Made by a program: the position numbers and the translations under genes
Part shown: positions 2,698 to 35,851 of the stretch, one piece after another
Layout: every line of letters starts with the position of its first letter
Numbering within the stretch: position 1 is the stretch's first letter
Notes under the pieces: model-generated
What the model saw: the letters and a program-made list of their open reading frames with translations, nothing else
Told to the model about the DNA's origin: nothing
Database searches by the model: none
From: an uncultured Gemmatimonadota bacterium
GTDB taxonomy: Bacteria > Gemmatimonadota > Gemmatimonadetes > Gemmatimonadales > Gemmatimonadaceae
DNA: 64,000 nucleotides
Reading direction: 5' to 3'
Assembly (NCBI GenBank): GCA_903882745.1
Contig: CAIRYG010000011.1
Span: 310,001 to 374,000, forward strand

Positions 2698-3588
2698 TCA
2701 GGGTGTGCCGGGCACCTTGGTGTCGCCCGCGTCCTTCTTGGCCGCCGCACGTTCCTTGTCTTTGCGCTCTCGCAGTGCTTTGACCGCCGCGCGAAAGTCG
2801 TCGTCGCGCGCGCCACGCGCCGCTTGGTCGAGAATCTCGCTGCGGATCTGCGTGAGCATCTTCGCCCGTTCGGTCTGACCGGGGTTCGCCGTCTGATTCA
2901 GCGGGAGCAAGGCGAGTGCAGCGGTCGGGAGTTGAAACTTCCCGAGACGAATGTACTTGCCGTCGATCCCGTACTTCTTGCCATCGCGCTCGAAGGTCCA
3001 GTCGCCGGGTTCGCGCTCTTTCGGAATCTGCGCGAGCGAATCGTTGAGCGCGCCGAGGCGTGTGGCAAGTGTGCTGTCGAGCTTTCGGGTCCCCGTGAGC
3101 GGCATCTGCACCACGGTCGCGCCCGGTGCCCACACGCGTGGATCGGTGAACTGCGGCCGGATGCCACGCGCCGGACCACCGGTGCCAACAATCGGACCGC
3201 TGCCCTGCTCTTCGTCGCCTGGCCGGAAGGGGCGCGGAAGATCGGGGAGCCCCTTCGGCACGATGGTCGGCGCCACCAGCGGCGGAAGCGACGGCGTTGG
3301 GTTGTTCGTCCGGACGATCGGCCGACCATTGCCCCCGGAGCGGGCGGGCTCGGTTTCCTTGGGATCGCCCTTGGGCATGGCGATGAACCCAATGCGCTCG
3401 ACGACCGGCGGGGTGTTCCCCTCGCTCATCAAGCGCGCCCAGTCGACTGGGAACACCAAAATCCGGACGAGCAAGGTGATGACCACGACGTGCGCCACCA
3501 ACGACACCAACACGGCACCGGGGCCGCGTCGCGACGGATCGCGATGCGTCCCCGGCGTGCTGATGAGCTGCCGGCGCGGCGTGGTCAT
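2698..3588 (-). CDS. Membrane-anchored periplasmic protein, TonB-like layout, function unknown
   Basis: I do not recognise a defined family. The 296-aa protein has a basic N terminus, one hydrophobic segment (about residues 25-46), then a proline- and glycine-rich stretch (about 60-150). This is followed by a compact region (about 155-265) and a Lys/Ala/Asp-rich charged tail. The layout resembles TonB energy transducers, with one N-terminal anchor and a long Pro-rich periplasmic arm, but I see no diagnostic TonB C-terminal motif. It is the last gene of the minus-strand run, 16 bases downstream of the FAH-family gene, and its stop faces lexA across about 33 bases. Confidence 0.75.
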   Translation of the reverse strand: MTTPRRQLISTPGTHRDPSRRGPGAVLVSLVAHVVVITLLVRILVFPVDWARLMSEGNTPPVVERIGFIAMPKGDPKETEPARSGGNGRPIVRTNNPTPSLPPLVAPTIVPKGLPDLPRPFRPGDEEQGSGPIVGTGGPARGIRPQFTDPRVWAPGATVVQMPLTGTRKLDSTLATRLGALNDSLAQIPKEREPGDWTFERDGKKYGIDGKYIRLGKFQLPTAALALLPLNQTANPGQTERAKMLTQIRSEILDQAARGARDDDFRAAVKALRERKDKERAAAKKDAGDTKVPGTP

Positions 3589-3604
3589 CGGGTGTTCAAC
3601 GGCA

Positions 3605-4216
3605 TTAGAGCGCGGTCACCGTGCTGCGCACGATTGAGTGGCCGAGGATCTCGACCTCGACCATGTCGCCCTGAAAGATCTGCGCGACGCCGGCGGGGGT
3701 GCCCGTCAGCACGAGATCGCCGGGCTCGAGCGTGATGTAGCGGGTGATGTATTCCAACAGCACCGGAATCGAGAACGCCATGTCAGCACTGTGGCCCCGC
3801 TGCTTCTCCACACCATTGTGGCGCGTCACGACGGTCAGGTTCGCCAAGTCGAACGGCTTGTTGGACTCTTCACCGAGTGGAAGGAAGGTGTCGCATCCCT
3901 TGGCGCGTGCCCACTGGCCGTCTTCTTTCTGCCATTCGCGAGCAGACACGTCGTTGGCCGCCACTACACCACGAACGCCGGCCGCACATTCCGCGGCGGT
4001 TGCTTTGCGCAGGCGCGACCCGATCACCACGCCGATTTCGCCCTCGAAATCGATACGGCCCGCGTCGGCGGGGAGCTCAATCGCTTCGCCCGAGGCGATG
4101 ACGGTGGTCGGCGGCTTGAGAAAGAGCAGCGGCTCCTTCGGCACGTCGTTCCCCATCTCTTTGGCGTGCTCGAGGTAGTTCCGGCCAACACAGACAATCT
4201 TCCCTGGCGTTTTCAT
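3605..4216 (-). CDS. Fumarylacetoacetate hydrolase (FAH) family protein
   Basis: The 203-aa protein is a single-domain FAH-fold enzyme, the short form typical of acylpyruvases, oxaloacetate decarboxylases and 2-oxo-acid hydratases/isomerases. The divalent metal site is visible as Glu58 and Glu60 (D-F-E-G-E) and Asp89 (A-N-D-V-S-A-R), with the family start C-V-G-R-N-Y near residue 9. The exact substrate cannot be read from the sequence. It begins 8 bases after the stop of the DinG-like helicase gene and probably shares its transcript, without an obvious functional link. Confidence 0.88.
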   Translation of the reverse strand: MKTPGKIVCVGRNYLEHAKEMGNDVPKEPLLFLKPPTTVIASGEAIELPADAGRIDFEGEIGVVIGSRLRKATAAECAAGVRGVVAANDVSAREWQKEDGQWARAKGCDTFLPLGEESNKPFDLANLTVVTRHNGVEKQRGHSADMAFSIPVLLEYITRYITLEPGDLVLTGTPAGVAQIFQGDMVEVEILGHSIVRSTVTAL

Positions 4217-4224
4217 GTCTTAAT

Positions 4225-6789
4225 TTACCCTGAAGTGTTTGAAAGGGTCGTCCCGTAAAATACGCGCAACTGCTCGAGAAGTGCCGGCCAGGCCCCCTCA
4301 ATGCGCCGAGCCGGTGGCAACCCGGCCAGCAGCGCCCTGCCATACGACTTCCGCACGACCCTGGGGTCACAGATGACAACGACGCCTTGGTCCGTCGCGG
4401 TGCGAATGAGTCGGCCGAACCCCTGCTTGAGCCGCAGTGCGGCGTGGGGCACCATATACTCGCCAAACGAGTCGCCCCCGGCACCGTCGATCGCTTCACA
4501 TTGGGCGGCGGTCACCGGCTCCGACGGCACCCGAAAGGGAATCTTTCCGAGGACGAGTCCGCGGAGCGCGCGCCCCGGCACATCGACCCCTTCCCAGAAC
4601 GAGGCGGTGCCGATCAAGACGGCATCGCCGTGCTCACGGAATCGCCGCAACAGTGCGTCACGCGTGTCCTCGCCGTGCACCAGTAACGGATGTTGCGACT
4701 CCATCCCCAAGGCGCGCATCGCCTGCGCGGCCTCGCGCACGTCGCGATGGCTGGTGAAGAGCAGAAATACCCCGCCGCCCGAGACGCCCACGAGATCAGC
4801 CGCCGCTTGCACCGTACGGCGGAAATGTACGCGCGCATCTTCGTTCGGCGCTGGAAAATCCGTGGGAATCGCAAGAATCGCCTGCGTCGCGTAGTCAAAG
4901 GGCGACGGCAGCGACGCGGTCACGGGCTCCACATCCTCTTGGTCGAGCCCCAACCGGCGACTCACAAAATCAAAGGCCTCCCCCACGGCGAGCGTTGCGC
5001 TGGTCACGACGCAGGTCTCGAGTCGGCGAAACAGATCCTCGCGCAACAACGGCGCCATGTCGAGCGGAACGCTGGCGAGCGCCACATTGCGATCGAGGCG
5101 ATCCCCTTCCTCGGCCGTATTGTCACTCTGCCGTCGACGCGAATCGGTGCGCGCCTCGATCCAGCGCACCAGCTTGTCCGCGTCCTTGCCAGGCCGAAGC
5201 GCCATCCGCATACCGTCGGCCGCGTTGCCAAGCCGGCGCGTCACACCGCGGATCTCATTGAGCAGGGGCGCGAGCTCCTCAGCGCGGCGTTCGTCGGTCT
5301 CCAAACGCTCACGGACCATCACGAGTCCTTCGGAGAGCAGTTCAATCTCGCGCAGCACGTCATCAAGCGACGCGCTCAGCCCGGCGCGCCAGACGGGTTC
5401 TTCGTCGAAGGCCGGCGTCAGGCGCACCTGCTGCTCGCTCCGCGCATGCATCAATTCGTCGAGAATGTCGAACAGACGCATCCCCAACTCGCGCGCGGTC
5501 GCCGCCGACGGCACAAGGCGCGCCCGCACGAGATCCAAGCTGGCCACGCTCAACAGGTCATCGGCTGCGACAAGCTTTCGTTCGAGCGAATGCAGCAGCC
5601 CCTTTCCGTTGCGATCGAGTCGCGCGAACAGTCGCTGCACGCCTCGGCGCGTGACCGTCTGCCCTAAGTGCGAACTCGCCGCGTCCTCCAGATGATGCCC
5701 TTCGTCGATGACGAGCCGCGTGTACGCGGGGAGCACTGCAGACTCCCCCCAGTTCCCCGAGGCACGGCGCACCGCGACATCCGCCATGAGCAGGTGATGG
5801 TTCACCACCACAATGTCCGCCTGCGCCGCGAGTTTCCGCGCCGAGAAGACAAAACATTTTTCGAAGTACGGACAGCGGAGACGCGTGCACAGATCGGGCT
5901 CCGCGGCGACTTCGTCCCACACGTCCGTTCGCGGCGCCACCAGGAGGTCCGCGGTCGACCCATCGCGTGTTTTGTCCGCCCACGACGCGAGCGCATCGAG
6001 CTCGGCCGCCGCCCCGGTATCGAACAACGACGCGCCGGCCGCACGCGCCTGCTCGAGACGCTGCAGGCACAAATAGTTCCGCCACCCCTTGAGGAGCGCA
6101 AAGCGCACGGGCTGATCGCTCAGCGCTTCGGCGAGGAAAGGCAAATCCTTCCCCACTAACTGCTCTTGCAGCGTGATGGTCGCGGTGGAGACAATCGTCC
6201 GCTCCCCGTTCGCGGCCGCCCAGCGCAATGCGGGCACGAGATAGCCGAGTGATTTTCCGACGCCCGTGCCGGCTTCAATCAGCCCAATCCCGCCGCGCGA
6301 ATACAACTTGCTCACTCGGCGTGCCATCTCGCGCTGACTCGGGCGATCTTCGTAGCGCCCGAGTGCTGCTGCGATTGGGCCGTCGGGACCGAGCAAATCG
6401 GCGACGTCATTCGGGTTGATCTCAATGATCGGCTGCTCACGCGGGACCTCGACCACCACATACAGATCGCTGGCCGCGTTATCGATAATCCCGAAGCCGA
6501 TGCCGTCGCCGTGCACGCGAACGGCGATTTCGAGGTCCGGCCCAGACGGCTGCAGCACCCCGGAGGGATGATTGTGCACCAGCATCTCCCCGCGCTGCGC
6601 GAACCCCGGGAGTGCGAGGACACTCGAGATATCGCCACGCGCTACAGGGCGCGCCGCGGTGATGATACCCTCGTCGTTGACCGTACAGGAAAAGCAGACC
6701 TCGTTCCCACCCGCGAGCGAAATCGCGGCGCGCATCGCGCGCGCCGGTCCCTGTGCAATTCGTGAGGCTGGCGTTACGCGATCGCTCAC
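4225..6789 (-). CDS. DinG/XPD-family Fe-S helicase with N-terminal RadC-like JAMM domain
   Basis: The 854-aa protein is a fusion. Residues about 15-120 look like a JAB/JAMM (RadC-type) domain. It has Glu30 and the signature H72-N-H74-P-S-G then S82 and D85, matching the metal-binding H-x-H-x(10)-D of RadC. Residues about 145-854 are a superfamily 2 DinG/XPD helicase. This part has Walker A A-G-T-G-V-G-K-S (173-180), four cysteines for an Fe-S cluster (241, 301, 306, 312), the D-E-G-H box (362-365), and late motifs W-E-G-V-D-V-P-G and G-R-L-I-R. DinG enzymes unwind 5'-3' and act on R-loops and forks. I chose the GTG at 6789 because it overlaps the upstream stop (GTGA). A longer frame would run into that gene. 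Confidence 0.92.
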   Translation of the reverse strand: MSDRVTPASRIAQGPARAMRAAISLAGGNEVCFSCTVNDEGIITAARPVARGDISSVLALPGFAQRGEMLVHNHPSGVLQPSGPDLEIAVRVHGDGIGFGIIDNAASDLYVVVEVPREQPIIEINPNDVADLLGPDGPIAAALGRYEDRPSQREMARRVSKLYSRGGIGLIEAGTGVGKSLGYLVPALRWAAANGERTIVSTATITLQEQLVGKDLPFLAEALSDQPVRFALLKGWRNYLCLQRLEQARAAGASLFDTGAAAELDALASWADKTRDGSTADLLVAPRTDVWDEVAAEPDLCTRLRCPYFEKCFVFSARKLAAQADIVVVNHHLLMADVAVRRASGNWGESAVLPAYTRLVIDEGHHLEDAASSHLGQTVTRRGVQRLFARLDRNGKGLLHSLERKLVAADDLLSVASLDLVRARLVPSAATARELGMRLFDILDELMHARSEQQVRLTPAFDEEPVWRAGLSASLDDVLREIELLSEGLVMVRERLETDERRAEELAPLLNEIRGVTRRLGNAADGMRMALRPGKDADKLVRWIEARTDSRRRQSDNTAEEGDRLDRNVALASVPLDMAPLLREDLFRRLETCVVTSATLAVGEAFDFVSRRLGLDQEDVEPVTASLPSPFDYATQAILAIPTDFPAPNEDARVHFRRTVQAAADLVGVSGGGVFLLFTSHRDVREAAQAMRALGMESQHPLLVHGEDTRDALLRRFREHGDAVLIGTASFWEGVDVPGRALRGLVLGKIPFRVPSEPVTAAQCEAIDGAGGDSFGEYMVPHAALRLKQGFGRLIRTATDQGVVVICDPRVVRKSYGRALLAGLPPARRIEGAWPALLEQLRVFYGTTLSNTSG

Positions 6790-29476: not shown

Positions 29477-30940
29477 GTGCGCAGAACGCTCCTTCTCCTG
29501 CTCGCGCTCACCGCCTGTTCGGGTGGTGACGCGTCGAGTCGCAATGCTTCGGCGTCGGCGGCCAATGGTCCCGACGCGATTCTCGTGCGCGTGCCGCGCG
29601 ACGGCGGTGCCGCCAAGGCCTACCGCTTCGGGCGCGACTCCGCGCTCTGGACCTCCACCGAGCGCGTTCCCCCGATGCGGCGCGTGCTCGGATTCGACGA
29701 GGAACAGGGTGCTATCGCCTACCTCGACGACAAAGGAAGCGCGAGTCGCCTCGACCTCCGGCTGGCGGTGGCCACGCCGGCCGCGACCGGCACGCTCAGT
29801 GGCGTGACGAGCGCCGACGGCTGGGCCGTGTACGGACTCACCGCGAACGGTCAGGTCTCACGCACCACCCCGAGTGGGAGCTGGAGCTACGCACCGTCCC
29901 CGGCAGCACGCCTGCTGATTCCACTCCCCGACGGATCCCTCGTGCTCGTGCACGACGACGGCGGCCGCTCGCGCCTGCGACGGCTGCGGCCGCCCGAGCC
30001 GCGGATTACCGACACGAGCTCGGTGCCGCACCCCGAGCTCGTGATGCGCACCGACATTGGGGACCGCATTTACTTTACCGGCGACTCCGGGCTCGTGAGT
30101 ATTCGCGTCCGCGATTTTGTCCGCACCAAAACGATCAAGCTCCCGCAGCGCGCCACCGCATTGGTGGCGACGCCGAGTGGCGACCGGGTATTCGTCGCGC
30201 TCGAGGGGAAGAAGCGCATCGCGATCGTGGACCGCTACGCGGACAAAGTCGACCGCACTATCGACCTGCCGGACGTCGCCACCGCACTGCGCATCGACTC
30301 GGACGGGCAGTATTTATTGATCAAGGCCGCGTCGAGTGACTCAACCTTCGTGTTTGCGATTGGCAGCGGACGGCTCATCGGGTCACTCCGAACAGAGTGG
30401 CGTGAAGACCTTCCAATCGTGGGCCCGGACGGCGGGATCGCGATCGTGCGGGACAGCGACGTCGTGATCGTCGATGCCGAATCCCGTCGTGAGCGGGTAC
30501 GGTTCAAGGGCGGCGCCGCCGACCGGTGGGCACTCGTGCGGTGGAATGGGTTCCGGCCGCGCGCGGCCGGCCTTGATGCGCCCGTCAAGTTCGACCGCGA
30601 TTCCACCGACGACCCCGCCGCGGGGCCACCCGCGGACACGGCCCGTGTAACGCCGCCGGCTCCCGAGCCGCCGCCCACCGCTCCCGCCGTCGCGCCCAAA
30701 TCAACCGCGGTTGCTGGGCGCTGGATGATCGCCTTTGCCTCGCTGCTCTCCGAGGACCGCGCGAGGGCAATGGCACAGTCGATCAAAGTGGATGGCAAGC
30801 CCACCCAGGTCACCGCACTGACCACCAACGGCACCACCGCCTGGCGCATCGTGTTCGGGCCCTACGACACACGCGATGCCGCGGAGAAGGCCGGAAAGCG
30901 CACCGGGCTTCCCTACTGGGCCTTTGAGGCAACGCCGTGA
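29477..30940 (+). CDS. Lipoprotein with beta-propeller-like body and C-terminal SPOR domain
   Basis: The 487-aa protein starts with GTG and has a lipoprotein signal (L-L-A-L-T-A-C, Cys14). Residues about 30-370 are beta-rich with repeated strand patterns suggestive of a propeller (for example V-A-T-P-S-G-D-R-V-F-V-A-L). A Pro/Ala linker (about 375-410) leads to a SPOR domain (about 413-485, G-R-W-M-I-A-F-A-S-L then W-R-I-V-F-G-P-Y). SPOR domains bind glycan stripped of stem peptides, usually at division septa. Its stop overlaps the next SPOR gene (GTGA), so the two products likely act together. Confidence 0.85.
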   Translation: MRRTLLLLLALTACSGGDASSRNASASAANGPDAILVRVPRDGGAAKAYRFGRDSALWTSTERVPPMRRVLGFDEEQGAIAYLDDKGSASRLDLRLAVATPAATGTLSGVTSADGWAVYGLTANGQVSRTTPSGSWSYAPSPAARLLIPLPDGSLVLVHDDGGRSRLRRLRPPEPRITDTSSVPHPELVMRTDIGDRIYFTGDSGLVSIRVRDFVRTKTIKLPQRATALVATPSGDRVFVALEGKKRIAIVDRYADKVDRTIDLPDVATALRIDSDGQYLLIKAASSDSTFVFAIGSGRLIGSLRTEWREDLPIVGPDGGIAIVRDSDVVIVDAESRRERVRFKGGAADRWALVRWNGFRPRAAGLDAPVKFDRDSTDDPAAGPPADTARVTPPAPEPPPTAPAVAPKSTAVAGRWMIAFASLLSEDRARAMAQSIKVDGKPTQVTALTTNGTTAWRIVFGPYDTRDAAEKAGKRTGLPYWAFEATP

Positions 30941-32331
30941 CTGATGGCGGGAACGACGCGGTGAACGACCGCGTCCTCGACAGCACCGCCGAGCGCCCCA
31001 ACCACTGGGAGGCGGAAGGGCGCCGCCTGGCCGACTGCCTCGCGGCGGTGTCGTCCGCCGTGGTGATTGGACTCGACCCCGACGCGACCGCACGCGTGGC
31101 AATCGGGCTCGCGCACGAGTGGCGCGCCCGGAAAGGTGTCGCCATTGGCGACCTCACGGGGTTCGCGTTTCCGCTCTACGAGCTCGCGGGGGGCGAGGAC
31201 GCCGCCGGTCTCACCGACTGCTTTCGCGATGACCTCTCGCTCAACGACATTGCCCGTCCAGCGCCCAGCGTCGAGGGGCTCTTCGTGCTGCCCGCAGGGA
31301 CCCCGCCGCTCGCCACCGAAGCGTTCTTGCGCAGCGAGCGCTGGGACAAACTGATCGGCGGGTTCGCGCAGGCGGGAGGACTCTTTCTGCTCATTGCCCC
31401 ACTCGGGGCCGCGGGACTCGATCATCTGGTCTCGCTCACGGGCGGCGTGATTGCCGTGGACGTCCCCGTCAACCGCCGCCAGGCCTACCCCCTGCTCGGT
31501 GCAGCCGAGGCGCCCGCACCCGAGACAGCGCCGGACACGGGCTGGGGCGCGGCCGCCTTGGAACGCGCAGGGTTCGCCAGTGGTGTCGGGCGCGCCGGGC
31601 GCACCTCAACCGGGCGCTCCCGACCAGCCGTGCGGCGCCTAGGAGCCCTTCTGGGGGCCCTGGGGGTGCTTGTGGCGGCGGGATGGGGGGCGATCGCCTG
31701 GCGCGCCCGCCACGCGCCCCCTGCCCTCCTGAAGCCTCGGTCCACCGCCCCCGCACCGGGAAAGCCAGACACCACCCTGGCGCAGCTCGTGGTCCCCAAG
31801 GCCGACACGATTCCGCTCAACGAGCCCGCCGCGGGGGCCGATTCGCTACTCGGCGCCCCCTACGCCGTCAATGTCGTAGCGGCGAACACGGTCGCGGGTG
31901 CAAATTCCGTGTTGCGCGACGGCGAAAAGGCGATCCTCCTTCCCGCCGTTACGGTCTCCCCGGTCACACTCGGCGGCGGGACCATTTGGTACCAAGTGAT
32001 TATCGGCGCATACGCGACACGTGCCGACGCGGACGACATGTTGCAGCTCTTGCGACGCAAAGGTGTCGTGCGCACGGATGGCGGCGTGGTCGTGCGGTTG
32101 CCCTTCGGCCTGCTCGTGGCTGACGGCCTGTCGGCATCAGAAGCGCACGCAGTGGTAACAGAGTGGCGGGGCAAAGAGATCATGGCCTACGCCCTTTTGC
32201 AGGCCGATGGGCGGGCACGCGTGCTGGCCGGTGCGTTTGAAACACCGGCGCAGGCAGCACCGCTAGCAGCACAGTTGCGACGGGCCGGAGTTCCGGCGAC
32301 GGTCGTTTATCGTCTAGGGAGAGTGTTCTAA
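30937..32331 (+). CDS. Membrane SPOR protein with decayed ParA/BY-kinase-like N-terminal domain
   Basis: The 464-aa protein has an N-terminal region (about 20-190) whose order of blocks resembles SIMIBI ATPases of the MinD/CpsD group. It has A-I-G-L-A-H-E-W, then G-L-T-D-C-F-R-D, S-V-E-G-L-F-V-L-P-A-G and a F-L-L-I-A-P-L-G strand. The Walker A position has no G-K-T/S, so ATP hydrolysis is unlikely. One transmembrane segment lies near 230-252, so the N-terminal part would be cytoplasmic. The C-terminal part (about 335-464) looks like two SPOR-type repeats. GTG start, overlapping the SPOR lipoprotein gene; smc begins one base after its stop. Confidence 0.75.
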   Translation: MTDGGNDAVNDRVLDSTAERPNHWEAEGRRLADCLAAVSSAVVIGLDPDATARVAIGLAHEWRARKGVAIGDLTGFAFPLYELAGGEDAAGLTDCFRDDLSLNDIARPAPSVEGLFVLPAGTPPLATEAFLRSERWDKLIGGFAQAGGLFLLIAPLGAAGLDHLVSLTGGVIAVDVPVNRRQAYPLLGAAEAPAPETAPDTGWGAAALERAGFASGVGRAGRTSTGRSRPAVRRLGALLGALGVLVAAGWGAIAWRARHAPPALLKPRSTAPAPGKPDTTLAQLVVPKADTIPLNEPAAGADSLLGAPYAVNVVAANTVAGANSVLRDGEKAILLPAVTVSPVTLGGGTIWYQVIIGAYATRADADDMLQLLRRKGVVRTDGGVVVRLPFGLLVADGLSASEAHAVVTEWRGKEIMAYALLQADGRARVLAGAFETPAQAAPLAAQLRRAGVPATVVYRLGRVF

Positions 32332-32332
32332 C

Positions 32333-35300
32333 GTGCGGTTGACCAAACTCGAGTTGCATGGCTTCAAGTCGTTCGCCGATCCCACGGAGCTGGTCTTTAG
32401 CCAGGGAGTCACGGCGGTCGTCGGGCCGAATGGTTGCGGCAAGTCCAATGTGTCCGACGCCGTGCGTTGGGTGCTGGGTGAGCAGCGCGCGCGGTTATTG
32501 CGCGGCGCGAAGATGGAGGAAGTCATCTTCCAGGGCTCGTCAGCGCGTCGCGCGGTGAACTTGGCCGAAGTCTCCCTGCATTTCGACAATGACGACGGCG
32601 CGCTCCCCGTGCCGTTCAAGGAAGTCGTGATCACCCGGCGCCTCTCGCGCGCTGGTGAAAGCGAGTATTTCCTCAACCGTGCCCCCTGCCGCTTGCGCGA
32701 CATTCACGATCTCGTGCGCGGCACCGGACTCGGCGCCGACAGCGGCGTGGTGATCGAGAGCAAGATGATTGACGCGCTATTGTCGGATCGCCCCGACGAC
32801 CGCCGCGAACTGTTTGAGGAAGCGGCGGGCGTTGGGCTCTACCGCGACCGCCGCCGGAGCACGGAGCGTAGCCTCGAGCAGACGACCGCCGACATGGCGC
32901 GTTTGGACGATCTCATCAACGAAGTCACGAGTCAGGTCCGCTCGTTGGCGCGTCAGCGCAAGCGCGCCGAGCGTCACGCCGAAATCACCACACGACGCTT
33001 CGCCGTCGAGCTCACGCTCGCGTCGCGCGAAATGGCCGCGTGGAAGGATGAACTTGAGCAGCTCGACGAGCGGCTGATTCAGCTCCGCGAACAGCTCCCG
33101 CACGCGCAGAACGAAGTCATCGTGAAGGAAGCGCAGCGCGACGCCGCCCATGCCGCGCGCGCGGCCTCGGAGACGGTGCGTCACGAACGGGCCCGTGTGG
33201 CCGGAGAGGCCCGGGAAGCGGCGCTCAAGCTGCAGGGCGAGATTGCCGTCGCCGAAGAACGCCATCGCAATGCGGTGAGCCGTCGCGAGCGCGCCGAAGC
33301 GGAGCGCAGCGAAGGCGCCGCGATCGGCGAACGTGTCGTGGCCGAATGGGAAGCCGCGCGCGCCGAAGAAGAGCAGACCACCGCCGCGCTCCAGGGTGCG
33401 GTGGAGGCCCTAAAGCAGCAGTCGGCCGTCGAAGAAACGACCCGCACCGCCGTCGCGCAGGCCCGCACCGCCCTCGAGCGCGCGGACCAACATGTGCGGT
33501 CGCTGCGCGATGCGCTGCGCCGTCTTGAACTCGACCGCGAAGGCGCGGAACGCGAACTCGCTGATGTTGCACAACGCTCGGCAACGCTCGCCGTGGAACA
33601 CGAGGCGCTGGCCTCAACGCAGCGACTCGCCGAGCGCGAGCTCGCAACCGCCGACGAACAGCTCGCGATCGCTCAGAGTGCCGCACTCGAGGCGGATGCC
33701 GCGCTGTCACAGGCGCGCGATCACGCCCGCGACTGGCGCGACAAGGATACCGCCGCCCGCGCCGAGGCGCGCAAGGCAGAAGAAGAAGCGGCCGGCCTCG
33801 CCGGTCGTGTGAACGCGATTGAAGGACTCGAGCGTGAGCGCGTGGGGCTCGCCCCAGGTGCCGCACGTCTGCTCAAGGACCGTGAACAGTTTGGCGAAGG
33901 CGCCGTGCTAGGCCCGCTCTCCGACTACATCGGTGCCGATGCCAACACCGCCATGCTTGTGGAGCGCTTCCTCGGCCCCACGGTGCATGCAGTCGTGATT
34001 CGTGATGCCGCCGTCGCGACAGCAGTGCGCGAGTGGCATGGTCGTACGAATCCGGGAGCCCTGCTCCTGCTCCCGCTCGACGTTGTGTCGCAGTTGCCCG
34101 AAGCCGCCGAAGCGGGCGAGCTCTCTGCCTCCGTGCAGACCGAAGGTCCCGTGCGCGGGTGGGTCCGGACACTGCTTGGTCGGGTAAAGCCGGTCGATGC
34201 GGGCTCCGCGTTCGTCGATGCGCGCGGTGCCGTGTGGCTCCCCGACTCGACGTCGTCGGATGGTCCGCTCCGTCGTCGCGCCGAACTGACCAAGCTCCGC
34301 GAGTCGCTGGCGCTCAGCGTCGCGTCGCGTGATCACGCCACGGCCGCGCTGGCCGAGGTGCACGCCGCCCTGCTGACCGCGGAATCGGAGGCCACCGCCT
34401 GTGCCGATGCGTCCACGCAGGCGCATGCGCGGTCGCAGCAGGTCGCGTTGCAGCGGGCAGAACGTGAGCGCGCCTACCAGCGCGCCACCCGTGAGCTCGC
34501 CGATGCCGTCGCCCTCAGCGAGCGTCTCTCAGGCCGTCGGAACGAACTCTCGACGCGCGTCACGCAGAGCATCGCCGCGCAGGAAGAGCAGAATGTGGCG
34601 CTGGCAACAGCCGAACAGGCGGCCGGCACCTCGCGTGAGACGCTCGGCGAATCGGATCGTGCCCAAGATGCGGCCCGCGAAGCCCGTGCGGCCGCTCAAG
34701 TCACGCACGCGCAGGCTCAGGCGCGTCGTGAGGTGGCCACCGAACGGCGCTCGCGCCTCGAGCGCGAGCGGGCCAACGCGGCCGCGCGTCTCGAAACGCT
34801 GCAGAAGGAGCTCAGCGCGCTCGCCGAAGGCGATGCGGTGCTCGAGCGCCAGATGCAGGAATGGCGCGACTCGCTGACCGGTCGTCAGCAGACGCTCACC
34901 GACGCCGAGTCGTCGCTGGCGGACGCCGAGCAGGGCGTACGTACCGCGGATGCCGAACTCGCAGCCGTGGAGCAGGCGCTCGATCAGTCCCGTCACGATG
35001 TCACGGCGCTCGGCGAGTCGCTGCACGTGGCAGAACTCCGCCACACGGAGCTCTCGGGCAAGCGCGCGGCCATTACCGAACGTCTCGAAGCCGAATGGCG
35101 TCGCCCGCTTGGCGATCTCTTTGCCGACTACACCGCAGTCGAGGCCGAAGACGATGCCCTCCGCGCGGAAGCCGAAGAACTGCGCTCGGCGCTGGAATCG
35201 CTGGGCCCCGTGAATCCGCTGGCGATTGAGGAGCACGAGGAGGAGATGAAGCGTCTCGACTTCCTGACGAGCCAGCGTGCCGACTTGGCCGCGGCGCAGA

Positions 35301-35851
35301 TCTCGCTCCAGCAGGCAATCAAGGAGATCGACGTCACGGCACGTGAGATGTTCATGAAGACCTTCACGGAGGTTCGCGAGAACTTCCGCCAGATCTTCCA
35401 GACGCTCTTTGGCGGTGGCGAGTGCGACCTGAAGCTCGAAAACCCCGACTCACCGCTCGACTGCGACATCGAGGTGCACGCCTCGCCGCGCGGTAAGAAG
35501 ACGCAGCGTATCCATCTCCTGTCCAGTGGCGAGCGGGCGTTAGTCGCGCTCTCCCTGCTCTTCGGCATCTTCTTGACCAAGCCCAGCCCGTTCTGCTTGC
35601 TGGACGAAGTCGACGCCCCGCTGGACGACGCCAACGTGGGGCGCTTCGTGAAGATGCTGAACCAGTTCAAGACGAACACCCAGTTCATCGTCATCACGCA
35701 CAACCCGCGCACCACGACGGAGGCGGCCGACGCCGTCTACGGCGTGACCATGCAGGAGCCGGGGGTCAGCTCGCTCGTGAGCGTACGGATGAAGGGGCCG
35801 GCGGTGGACGAAGCAGAAGCACCGGCCGAGGCGCCCGCCACGGGGGCCTAA
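32333..35851 (+). CDS. smc: Chromosome segregation protein SMC
   Basis: The 1172-aa condensin ATPase has an N-terminal head with the Walker A loop G-P-N-G-C-G-K-S-N near 32-40, two long coiled coils (about 170-510 and 660-1010), a hinge at about 520-640, and a C-terminal head. The latter carries the ABC signature L-S-S-G-E-R-A-L and Walker B C-L-L-D-E-V-D-A-P-L-D-D. Length and order are those of bacterial SMC. GTG start, immediately after the SPOR gene. No scpA or scpB is in the window. A strong hairpin terminator follows. Confidence 0.98.
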   Translation: MRLTKLELHGFKSFADPTELVFSQGVTAVVGPNGCGKSNVSDAVRWVLGEQRARLLRGAKMEEVIFQGSSARRAVNLAEVSLHFDNDDGALPVPFKEVVITRRLSRAGESEYFLNRAPCRLRDIHDLVRGTGLGADSGVVIESKMIDALLSDRPDDRRELFEEAAGVGLYRDRRRSTERSLEQTTADMARLDDLINEVTSQVRSLARQRKRAERHAEITTRRFAVELTLASREMAAWKDELEQLDERLIQLREQLPHAQNEVIVKEAQRDAAHAARAASETVRHERARVAGEAREAALKLQGEIAVAEERHRNAVSRRERAEAERSEGAAIGERVVAEWEAARAEEEQTTAALQGAVEALKQQSAVEETTRTAVAQARTALERADQHVRSLRDALRRLELDREGAERELADVAQRSATLAVEHEALASTQRLAERELATADEQLAIAQSAALEADAALSQARDHARDWRDKDTAARAEARKAEEEAAGLAGRVNAIEGLERERVGLAPGAARLLKDREQFGEGAVLGPLSDYIGADANTAMLVERFLGPTVHAVVIRDAAVATAVREWHGRTNPGALLLLPLDVVSQLPEAAEAGELSASVQTEGPVRGWVRTLLGRVKPVDAGSAFVDARGAVWLPDSTSSDGPLRRRAELTKLRESLALSVASRDHATAALAEVHAALLTAESEATACADASTQAHARSQQVALQRAERERAYQRATRELADAVALSERLSGRRNELSTRVTQSIAAQEEQNVALATAEQAAGTSRETLGESDRAQDAAREARAAAQVTHAQAQARREVATERRSRLERERANAAARLETLQKELSALAEGDAVLERQMQEWRDSLTGRQQTLTDAESSLADAEQGVRTADAELAAVEQALDQSRHDVTALGESLHVAELRHTELSGKRAAITERLEAEWRRPLGDLFADYTAVEAEDDALRAEAEELRSALESLGPVNPLAIEEHEEEMKRLDFLTSQRADLAAAQISLQQAIKEIDVTAREMFMKTFTEVRENFRQIFQTLFGGGECDLKLENPDSPLDCDIEVHASPRGKKTQRIHLLSSGERALVALSLLFGIFLTKPSPFCLLDEVDAPLDDANVGRFVKMLNQFKTNTQFIVITHNPRTTTEAADAVYGVTMQEPGVSSLVSVRMKGPAVDEAEAPAEAPATGA

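Follow-up and report, generated by a model that had tools for sequence, protein, structure and literature searches.

Computational analysis of the window (the whole stretch of DNA studied, 64,000 nucleotides) identified a protein of 464 residues belonging to a phylum-wide family, placed tightly before smc, in which a BY-kinase fold that has lost its catalytic motifs is followed by a transmembrane (TM) helix and two SPOR domains. This architecture, which unites in one chain a BY pseudokinase and SPOR domains drawn from two known kinds of protein, phylum-wide and coupled to smc, is new. Our working interpretation, held with a confidence that stops just short of even, is that the protein is a membrane-anchored, non-catalytic BY-pseudokinase scaffold that would be co-expressed with SMC and would perhaps recruit segregation or division proteins.

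The 464 residues are encoded by an ORF with a GTG start. As the first-pass annotation had described, the upstream SPOR lipoprotein gene overlaps this ORF and smc starts one base after the pseudokinase stop; the overlap is of 4 bp, and the pseudokinase gene begins within the stop of its neighbour. The ORF is not a chance one, because matches were obtained in 17 of the 18 genomes of the genus and in 137 of the 148 genomes of the family sample. Other neighbours at the locus were a DAHP synthase, a LolA-like protein, an S41 protease and a TolB-like protein. A scan for promoters and terminators returned counts close to the chance level. The features of the locus are as follows.

29477–30940, + strand: upstream SPOR lipoprotein gene, with a beta-propeller-like body (ORF, Pfam)
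30937–32331, + strand: gene for the BY-pseudokinase domain, TM helix and two SPOR domains (ORF, Pfam, model)
30985–31527, + strand: N-terminal BY-kinase-fold domain, residues 17–197, catalytically degenerate (AlphaFold, Foldseek, VIA, hhalign)
31066–31092, + strand: eroded P-loop, residues 44–52, IGLDPDATA, without GK[ST] (homologue comparison)
31150–31152, + strand: D72, first Asp of Walker A', kept (D in 75 of 82 homologues)
31642–31710, + strand: transmembrane helix, residues ~236–258 (hydropathy peak and model helix)
31855–32064, + strand: SPOR domain 1, residues 307–376 (Pfam PF05036)
31870–31872, + strand: N312 in SPOR domain 1, at the position of the conserved Gln (RlpA Q270; alignment)
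32143–32307, + strand: SPOR domain 2, a weaker match (PF05036, E 4.6e-4 in the genome search)
32333–35851, + strand: smc (TIGR02168, E 2.6e-264)

A BY-kinase fold without catalytic motifs

The AlphaFold model of the protein had a mean pLDDT of 84.8, with the N-terminal domain mostly above 90. When the model was compared with the PDB by Foldseek, the best 50 matches shown were all BY-kinases (Wzc, VpsO, BceF, CapAB and Etk), at E-values down to 2.4e-6. Structural alignment with VIA placed 19 BY-kinase entries at Z 14.2–18.6 (6u1q_B, for example, at Z 18.6, rmsd 2.9, 179 aligned), after which there was a drop, MinD and Soj (ParA) scoring 12.7 or less. The BY-kinase alignments began at residues 15–19 and took in the helix ahead of strand 1; those with MinD/ParA began only at about residues 36–39. 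A second model, of a SPOR-less class-level relative, showed the same fold (Foldseek E 1.3e-11), with BY-kinases at Z 17.4–20.6 and MinD at 15.6 or less in VIA.

Profile comparisons pointed the same way. A 36-row profile of the domain (A2) aligned by hhalign, at 95.9% probability, with seven of the phylum's BY-kinases, and the 48-row alignment A3 matched BY-kinases of the phylum at 96.8%. The ATPase-like block order that had been read from the letters alone is thus real. The true BY-kinases of the phylum were also matched by the family profile. Sequence families alone missed the identity of the domain: single-sequence Pfam scans of 36 N-terminal domains found no ATPase family, NCBIfam returned weak BY-kinase names for them (TIGR03018 in 15 of the 36), and a PDB profile search with the N-terminal domain reached Wzc at E 0.13 only.

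MinD/ParA was considered as the parent of the domain and rejected, given its rank under the BY-kinases in VIA; the profile match of the domain to the ParA/MinD-like set of the genome was 0.2%, which is weak evidence as the set holds three sequences. The earlier description of a MinD/CpsD-type fold therefore stood as regards a dead SIMIBI domain of the CpsD type, but the nearest fold is that of BY-kinases (CpsD/Wzc type) rather than that of MinD. The comparison of the predicted structure with MinD, ParA and CpsD left the SIMIBI relation standing and gave no sign of an unrelated fold. We conclude that the N-terminal domain is, on the strength of the models and alignments, almost certainly a BY pseudokinase.

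Loss of the Walker A lysine, proposed from the single sequence, held throughout the family: in none of 82 homologues (82 genomes) do the 55 residues that precede D72, the Walker A' position, contain GK[ST]. As a positive control, all six BY-kinases examined (L102–L107) carried a GDGKS or NDGKS P-loop. The deviant Walker A motif of MinD/ParA (KGGxxGK[ST]) was likewise absent, with no GK[ST] at the site. At Walker B, the window protein has GGLFLLIAPL, and no Asp was present among the residues listed for columns 149–155 in the 82 homologues, the BY-kinases of the phylum having IIVDSPP-like sequences there. The kinase domain is followed by no C-terminal tyrosine cluster, and there is no Tyr between residue 185 and the TM helix; the complete set of tyrosines is at positions 81, 184, 309, 352, 359, 418 and 458. 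D72 was invariant in A3, G91 and G121 were glycine in 82 of 82 homologues, and W136 was tryptophan in 73 of 82. As in BY pseudokinases of the EcpK kind, then, the fold is kept and both the catalytic motifs and the tyrosine tail are lost. The P-loop was also absent from two of the deepest relatives, L185 and L187, whose sequences were read. Since none of the 82 homologues has it and even these two deep relatives lack it, the loss of the P-loop is old and probably precedes the split of the classes of the phylum.

Distribution and placement before smc

Matches were obtained in 73 of 101 genomes of the order sample and 215 of 298 genomes of the phylum sample. The phylum tally includes some other proteins (for example an AAA-SPOR protein, L097 of genome G205) and misses two genomes, G230 and G244, both of which were detected with A3, and a count centred on smc was therefore preferred. 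The AAA-SPOR protein (3182–5110, − strand) joins SPOR to an AAA_22 (ExeA-like) ATPase whose P-loop looks intact, and is another ATPase–SPOR fusion in the phylum.

A match to smc was found in 111 of 111 sampled genomes of the phylum, 109 of which could be assessed, the other two, at order level, having smc at contig ends. The pseudokinase gene lay immediately upstream of smc in 78 of the 109. It did so in all 41 genomes of the window's family (in G018 by the TM-SPOR part only), in nine of the 28 other genomes of the order (17 being without the gene, and two having smc at the end of a contig), in 28 of the 39 genomes at class level (the remaining 11 having smc and no such gene) and in none of three genomes of another class. 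The expectation that homologues would always accompany smc was thus borne out as a strong and old association, but not as an invariable one. In 67 of the 81 loci in which the domain is present, the stop of the gene and the start of smc were separated by −4 to +1 bp, which suggests that the two genes are translationally coupled. Since the 28 order- and class-level genomes (17 and 11) keep smc without the gene, the protein is an accessory rather than a core part of SMC function.

The 31 genomes lacking an adjacent gene were searched in full with A3, together with two positive genomes. Long homologues were found in the three outermost genomes, two of which carry the homologue on the strand opposite to smc, some 4 kb away from it. 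The others of the 31 gave weak matches only (E 1e-8 or worse), which were mostly BY-kinase-looking frames of 560–860 residues, or SPOR regions. The deepest relatives are open frames of 1034–1208 residues (L185, 8096–11587, − strand; L186, 1257–4880, + strand; L187, 961–4062, + strand); in the two that were read, L185 and L187, the dead kinase domain is separated from the TM-SPOR part by a highly acidic linker several hundred residues long.

The ORF before smc was the SPOR lipoprotein in 17 of the 17 order genomes without the gene, so that the neighbourhood can persist in its absence. Among class genomes without the gene, the four loci that were read (L146, L150, L155 and L157; genera g69 and g85) had one and the same type of ORF upstream of smc, which from its sequence we take to be RsfS/Iojap-like.

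A contig scan across genomes with the single window protein gave no match. The same scan with profile A1 gave 42 loci, of which 41 were titled Gemmatimonad- and one 'bacterium isolate WY3.bin98'. The family is likely to be restricted to the phylum; this is likely rather than proven because the A1 scan was pattern-limited. Two membrane proteins of ~310 residues from the same genus (L108, 978–1922, − strand; L109, 938–1864, − strand) carry another degenerate BY-kinase-like domain. Both were matched by the family profile at ~1e-5, L108 had no Pfam or NCBIfam match, and the pair is a candidate for a second, unlinked BY pseudokinase.

SPOR domains and separable modules

In the 464-residue protein, Pfam found SPOR alone, in two stretches (E 2.1e-11; 44.4 bits against a cut-off of 21). 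The model has a helix at residues 231–258, and the most hydrophobic stretch of 19 residues begins at residue 235. Pfam and the model helix together agree with the order first proposed, a TM segment and then two SPOR repeats. Searched against PDB sequences, the SPOR part of the protein gave matches to 1x60 (E 4.8e-6) and FtsN 1uta (E 0.005). Four SPOR matches at E ≤0.01 were present in the window's genome: the two described here, that of the upstream lipoprotein, and one in a protein elsewhere. The lipoprotein has, by eye, a lipobox-like start (LALTAC) and matched Pfam SPOR at E 8.7e-9; its homologue lay upstream of the pseudokinase gene in 39 of 39 loci (L001–L039).

Q270 of RlpA is described in PMC6895207 as a glycan-contacting and highly conserved SPOR residue. 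The corresponding position of SPOR domain 1 was occupied in 32 family rows by E (27), N (2), Q (2) and R (1), and in 16 deeper rows it was Q in 11. In the SPOR domain of the lipoprotein, mapped by eye, Gln was present in 24 order-level sequences and in none of the 36 family sequences printed. The SPOR domains of the window's family have thus probably moved, to judge from these residues, away from naked glycan and towards a different ligand or partner. The parallel loss of this residue from two SPOR proteins of one operon, within a single family, suggests that their ligand changed jointly or that the two are partners. The proposal that the protein senses septal glycan was accordingly weakened, both by these substitutions (N312 in the window, and E, N or R in 30 of 32 family members, with Gln lost from the lipoprotein too) and by the complete absence of SPOR from 11 of the 28 class-level members.

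These 11 proteins consist of the dead BY-kinase domain and a C-terminal TM helix, end soon after it, and still adjoin smc; Pfam detected no SPOR domain in the eight of them that were scanned. The reverse truncation was seen in G018 of the window's family (L140), where the TM-SPOR part is kept before smc and a BY-kinase domain was not detectable (A3N E 0.59, filters off). As the dead domain and TM helix are retained next to smc without SPOR, the cytoplasmic half evidently has a job of its own in the 11 SPOR-less genomes. The SPOR-less members and the kinase-less G018 show the modules to be separable, so that the general function is unlikely to depend on a signal passed from outside to inside along one chain.

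Possible roles and known systems

The protein is predicted to be bitopic, with the BY pseudokinase in the cytoplasm, one TM helix, and both SPOR domains facing outwards. Having lost the P-loop lysine along with the Walker B Asp and the tyrosine cluster at the C-terminus, the domain would be incapable of the usual ATP binding and of autophosphorylation, and for this reason may work as a scaffold on which partners dock, the role proposed for EcpK; by that analogy, a non-catalytic scaffold is quite probable. The protein would be produced together with SMC and be membrane-anchored, and in members that retain SPOR its position would be set by envelope contacts. The cytoplasmic partner would most likely belong to the segregation or division apparatus (SMC-ScpAB, ParB or a protein of the divisome), by analogy with the binding of ParB by active CpsD. 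Gene order and the CpsD–ParB precedent, the only two grounds for a partnership in chromosome segregation, leave it a real possibility, though less likely than not. Because the 17 order-level and 11 of 39 class-level genomes manage with smc and without the gene, the segregation link suggested by the locus is guilt by association, and gene order alone is no proof of a shared pathway. An smc-linked scaffold is further opposed by the three deepest-relative genomes, in which the gene is not next to smc, and by G018 with its undetectable kinase domain.

The principal alternative is that the protein is an operon passenger, an FtsN/DamX-like SPOR factor of the envelope or division whose dead BY-kinase domain provides a docking site for proteins of division or of cell-wall synthesis, smc being merely a long-standing neighbour. 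The SPOR domains, and the presence of another SPOR protein in this operon, favour it, as do the persistence of smc in genomes that lack the gene and the retention of the lipoprotein beside smc after gene loss. SPOR is dispensable in the 11 class-level members, however, while the kinase domain and its closeness to smc remain, and the first annotated genes past smc (DAHP synthase and LolA) are not division genes. We give this alternative a real chance, though one well below even. A pseudokinase of the EcpK/HfsB kind that scaffolds a polysaccharide co-polymerase is improbable. The domain is indeed a BY pseudokinase, and those described in PMC12004946 serve PCP-2 proteins, but no polysaccharide gene or link to a polysaccharide co-polymerase was found among the neighbours examined at the window locus, the window protein has TM and SPOR parts of its own, and elsewhere the genome encodes a BY-kinase/PCP-type protein (L114) whose P-loop is intact. 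We consider it similarly improbable that a remodelled site, with its kept Walker A' Asp, still binds nucleotide or another ligand and makes the domain a sensor or switch: conservation of D72 and of the two glycines speaks for such a site, but the P-loop is missing throughout and Walker B lacks an Asp among the residues listed, and the kept Asp may be structural.

A more specific form of the scaffold interpretation, which we regard as rather unlikely, would have the dead BY-kinase dedicated to tethering SMC, or the factor that loads it, to the membrane, and made with it by translational coupling. In some lineages SPOR would aim this tether at an envelope site, and a protein not known outside the phylum would thereby link chromosome handling physically with envelope constriction. 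Little is known of where bacterial SMC sits with respect to the membrane and the division site, and the cell biology of Gemmatimonadota has been little studied. A phylum-wide BY pseudokinase that carries an envelope domain and is tightly coupled to the SMC gene is a concrete candidate for a link between envelope and chromosome. It would also extend BY pseudokinases, so far described in PMC12004946 for polysaccharide export, to a different context.

Literature searches for a SPOR domain in Gemmatimonas, and for a SPOR domain with tyrosine kinase and Walker A, found no report in the sources covered, most subscription journals lying outside the search. Proteins of the FtsN/DamX/DedD type have one TM helix, a cytoplasmic N-terminus and SPOR outside. 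The window protein, by its predicted topology, shares this layout of a single TM helix and SPOR; we know of no BY-kinase fold in proteins of that type. The nearest solved folds to its N-terminal domain are the kinase domains of Wzc, VpsO, BceF, CapAB and Etk, in which the ATP site and tyrosine cluster are present and the kinase is C-terminal to the PCP membrane part. MinD and ParA (Soj) share the SIMIBI superfamily fold, but with a similarity below that of the BY-kinases. EcpK of Myxococcus, as described in PMC12004946, is a BY pseudokinase proposed to be a scaffold that acts by binding its membrane partner, and like the window protein it has a BY-kinase fold without Walker motifs and no Tyr-rich tail. 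It differs, in that account, as a stand-alone partner of a PCP-2 protein in a polysaccharide cluster, whereas the window protein is fused to TM-SPOR, precedes smc and, unlike EcpK, keeps the Walker A' Asp. CpsD of Streptococcus pneumoniae is described in PMC4574921 as an active BY-kinase at the septum that binds ParB (7 uM) and affects nucleoids and constriction. It has the BY-kinase fold in common with the window protein but, on that description, is active and autophosphorylates, has its membrane part in a separate protein, CpsC, and carries no SPOR domain.
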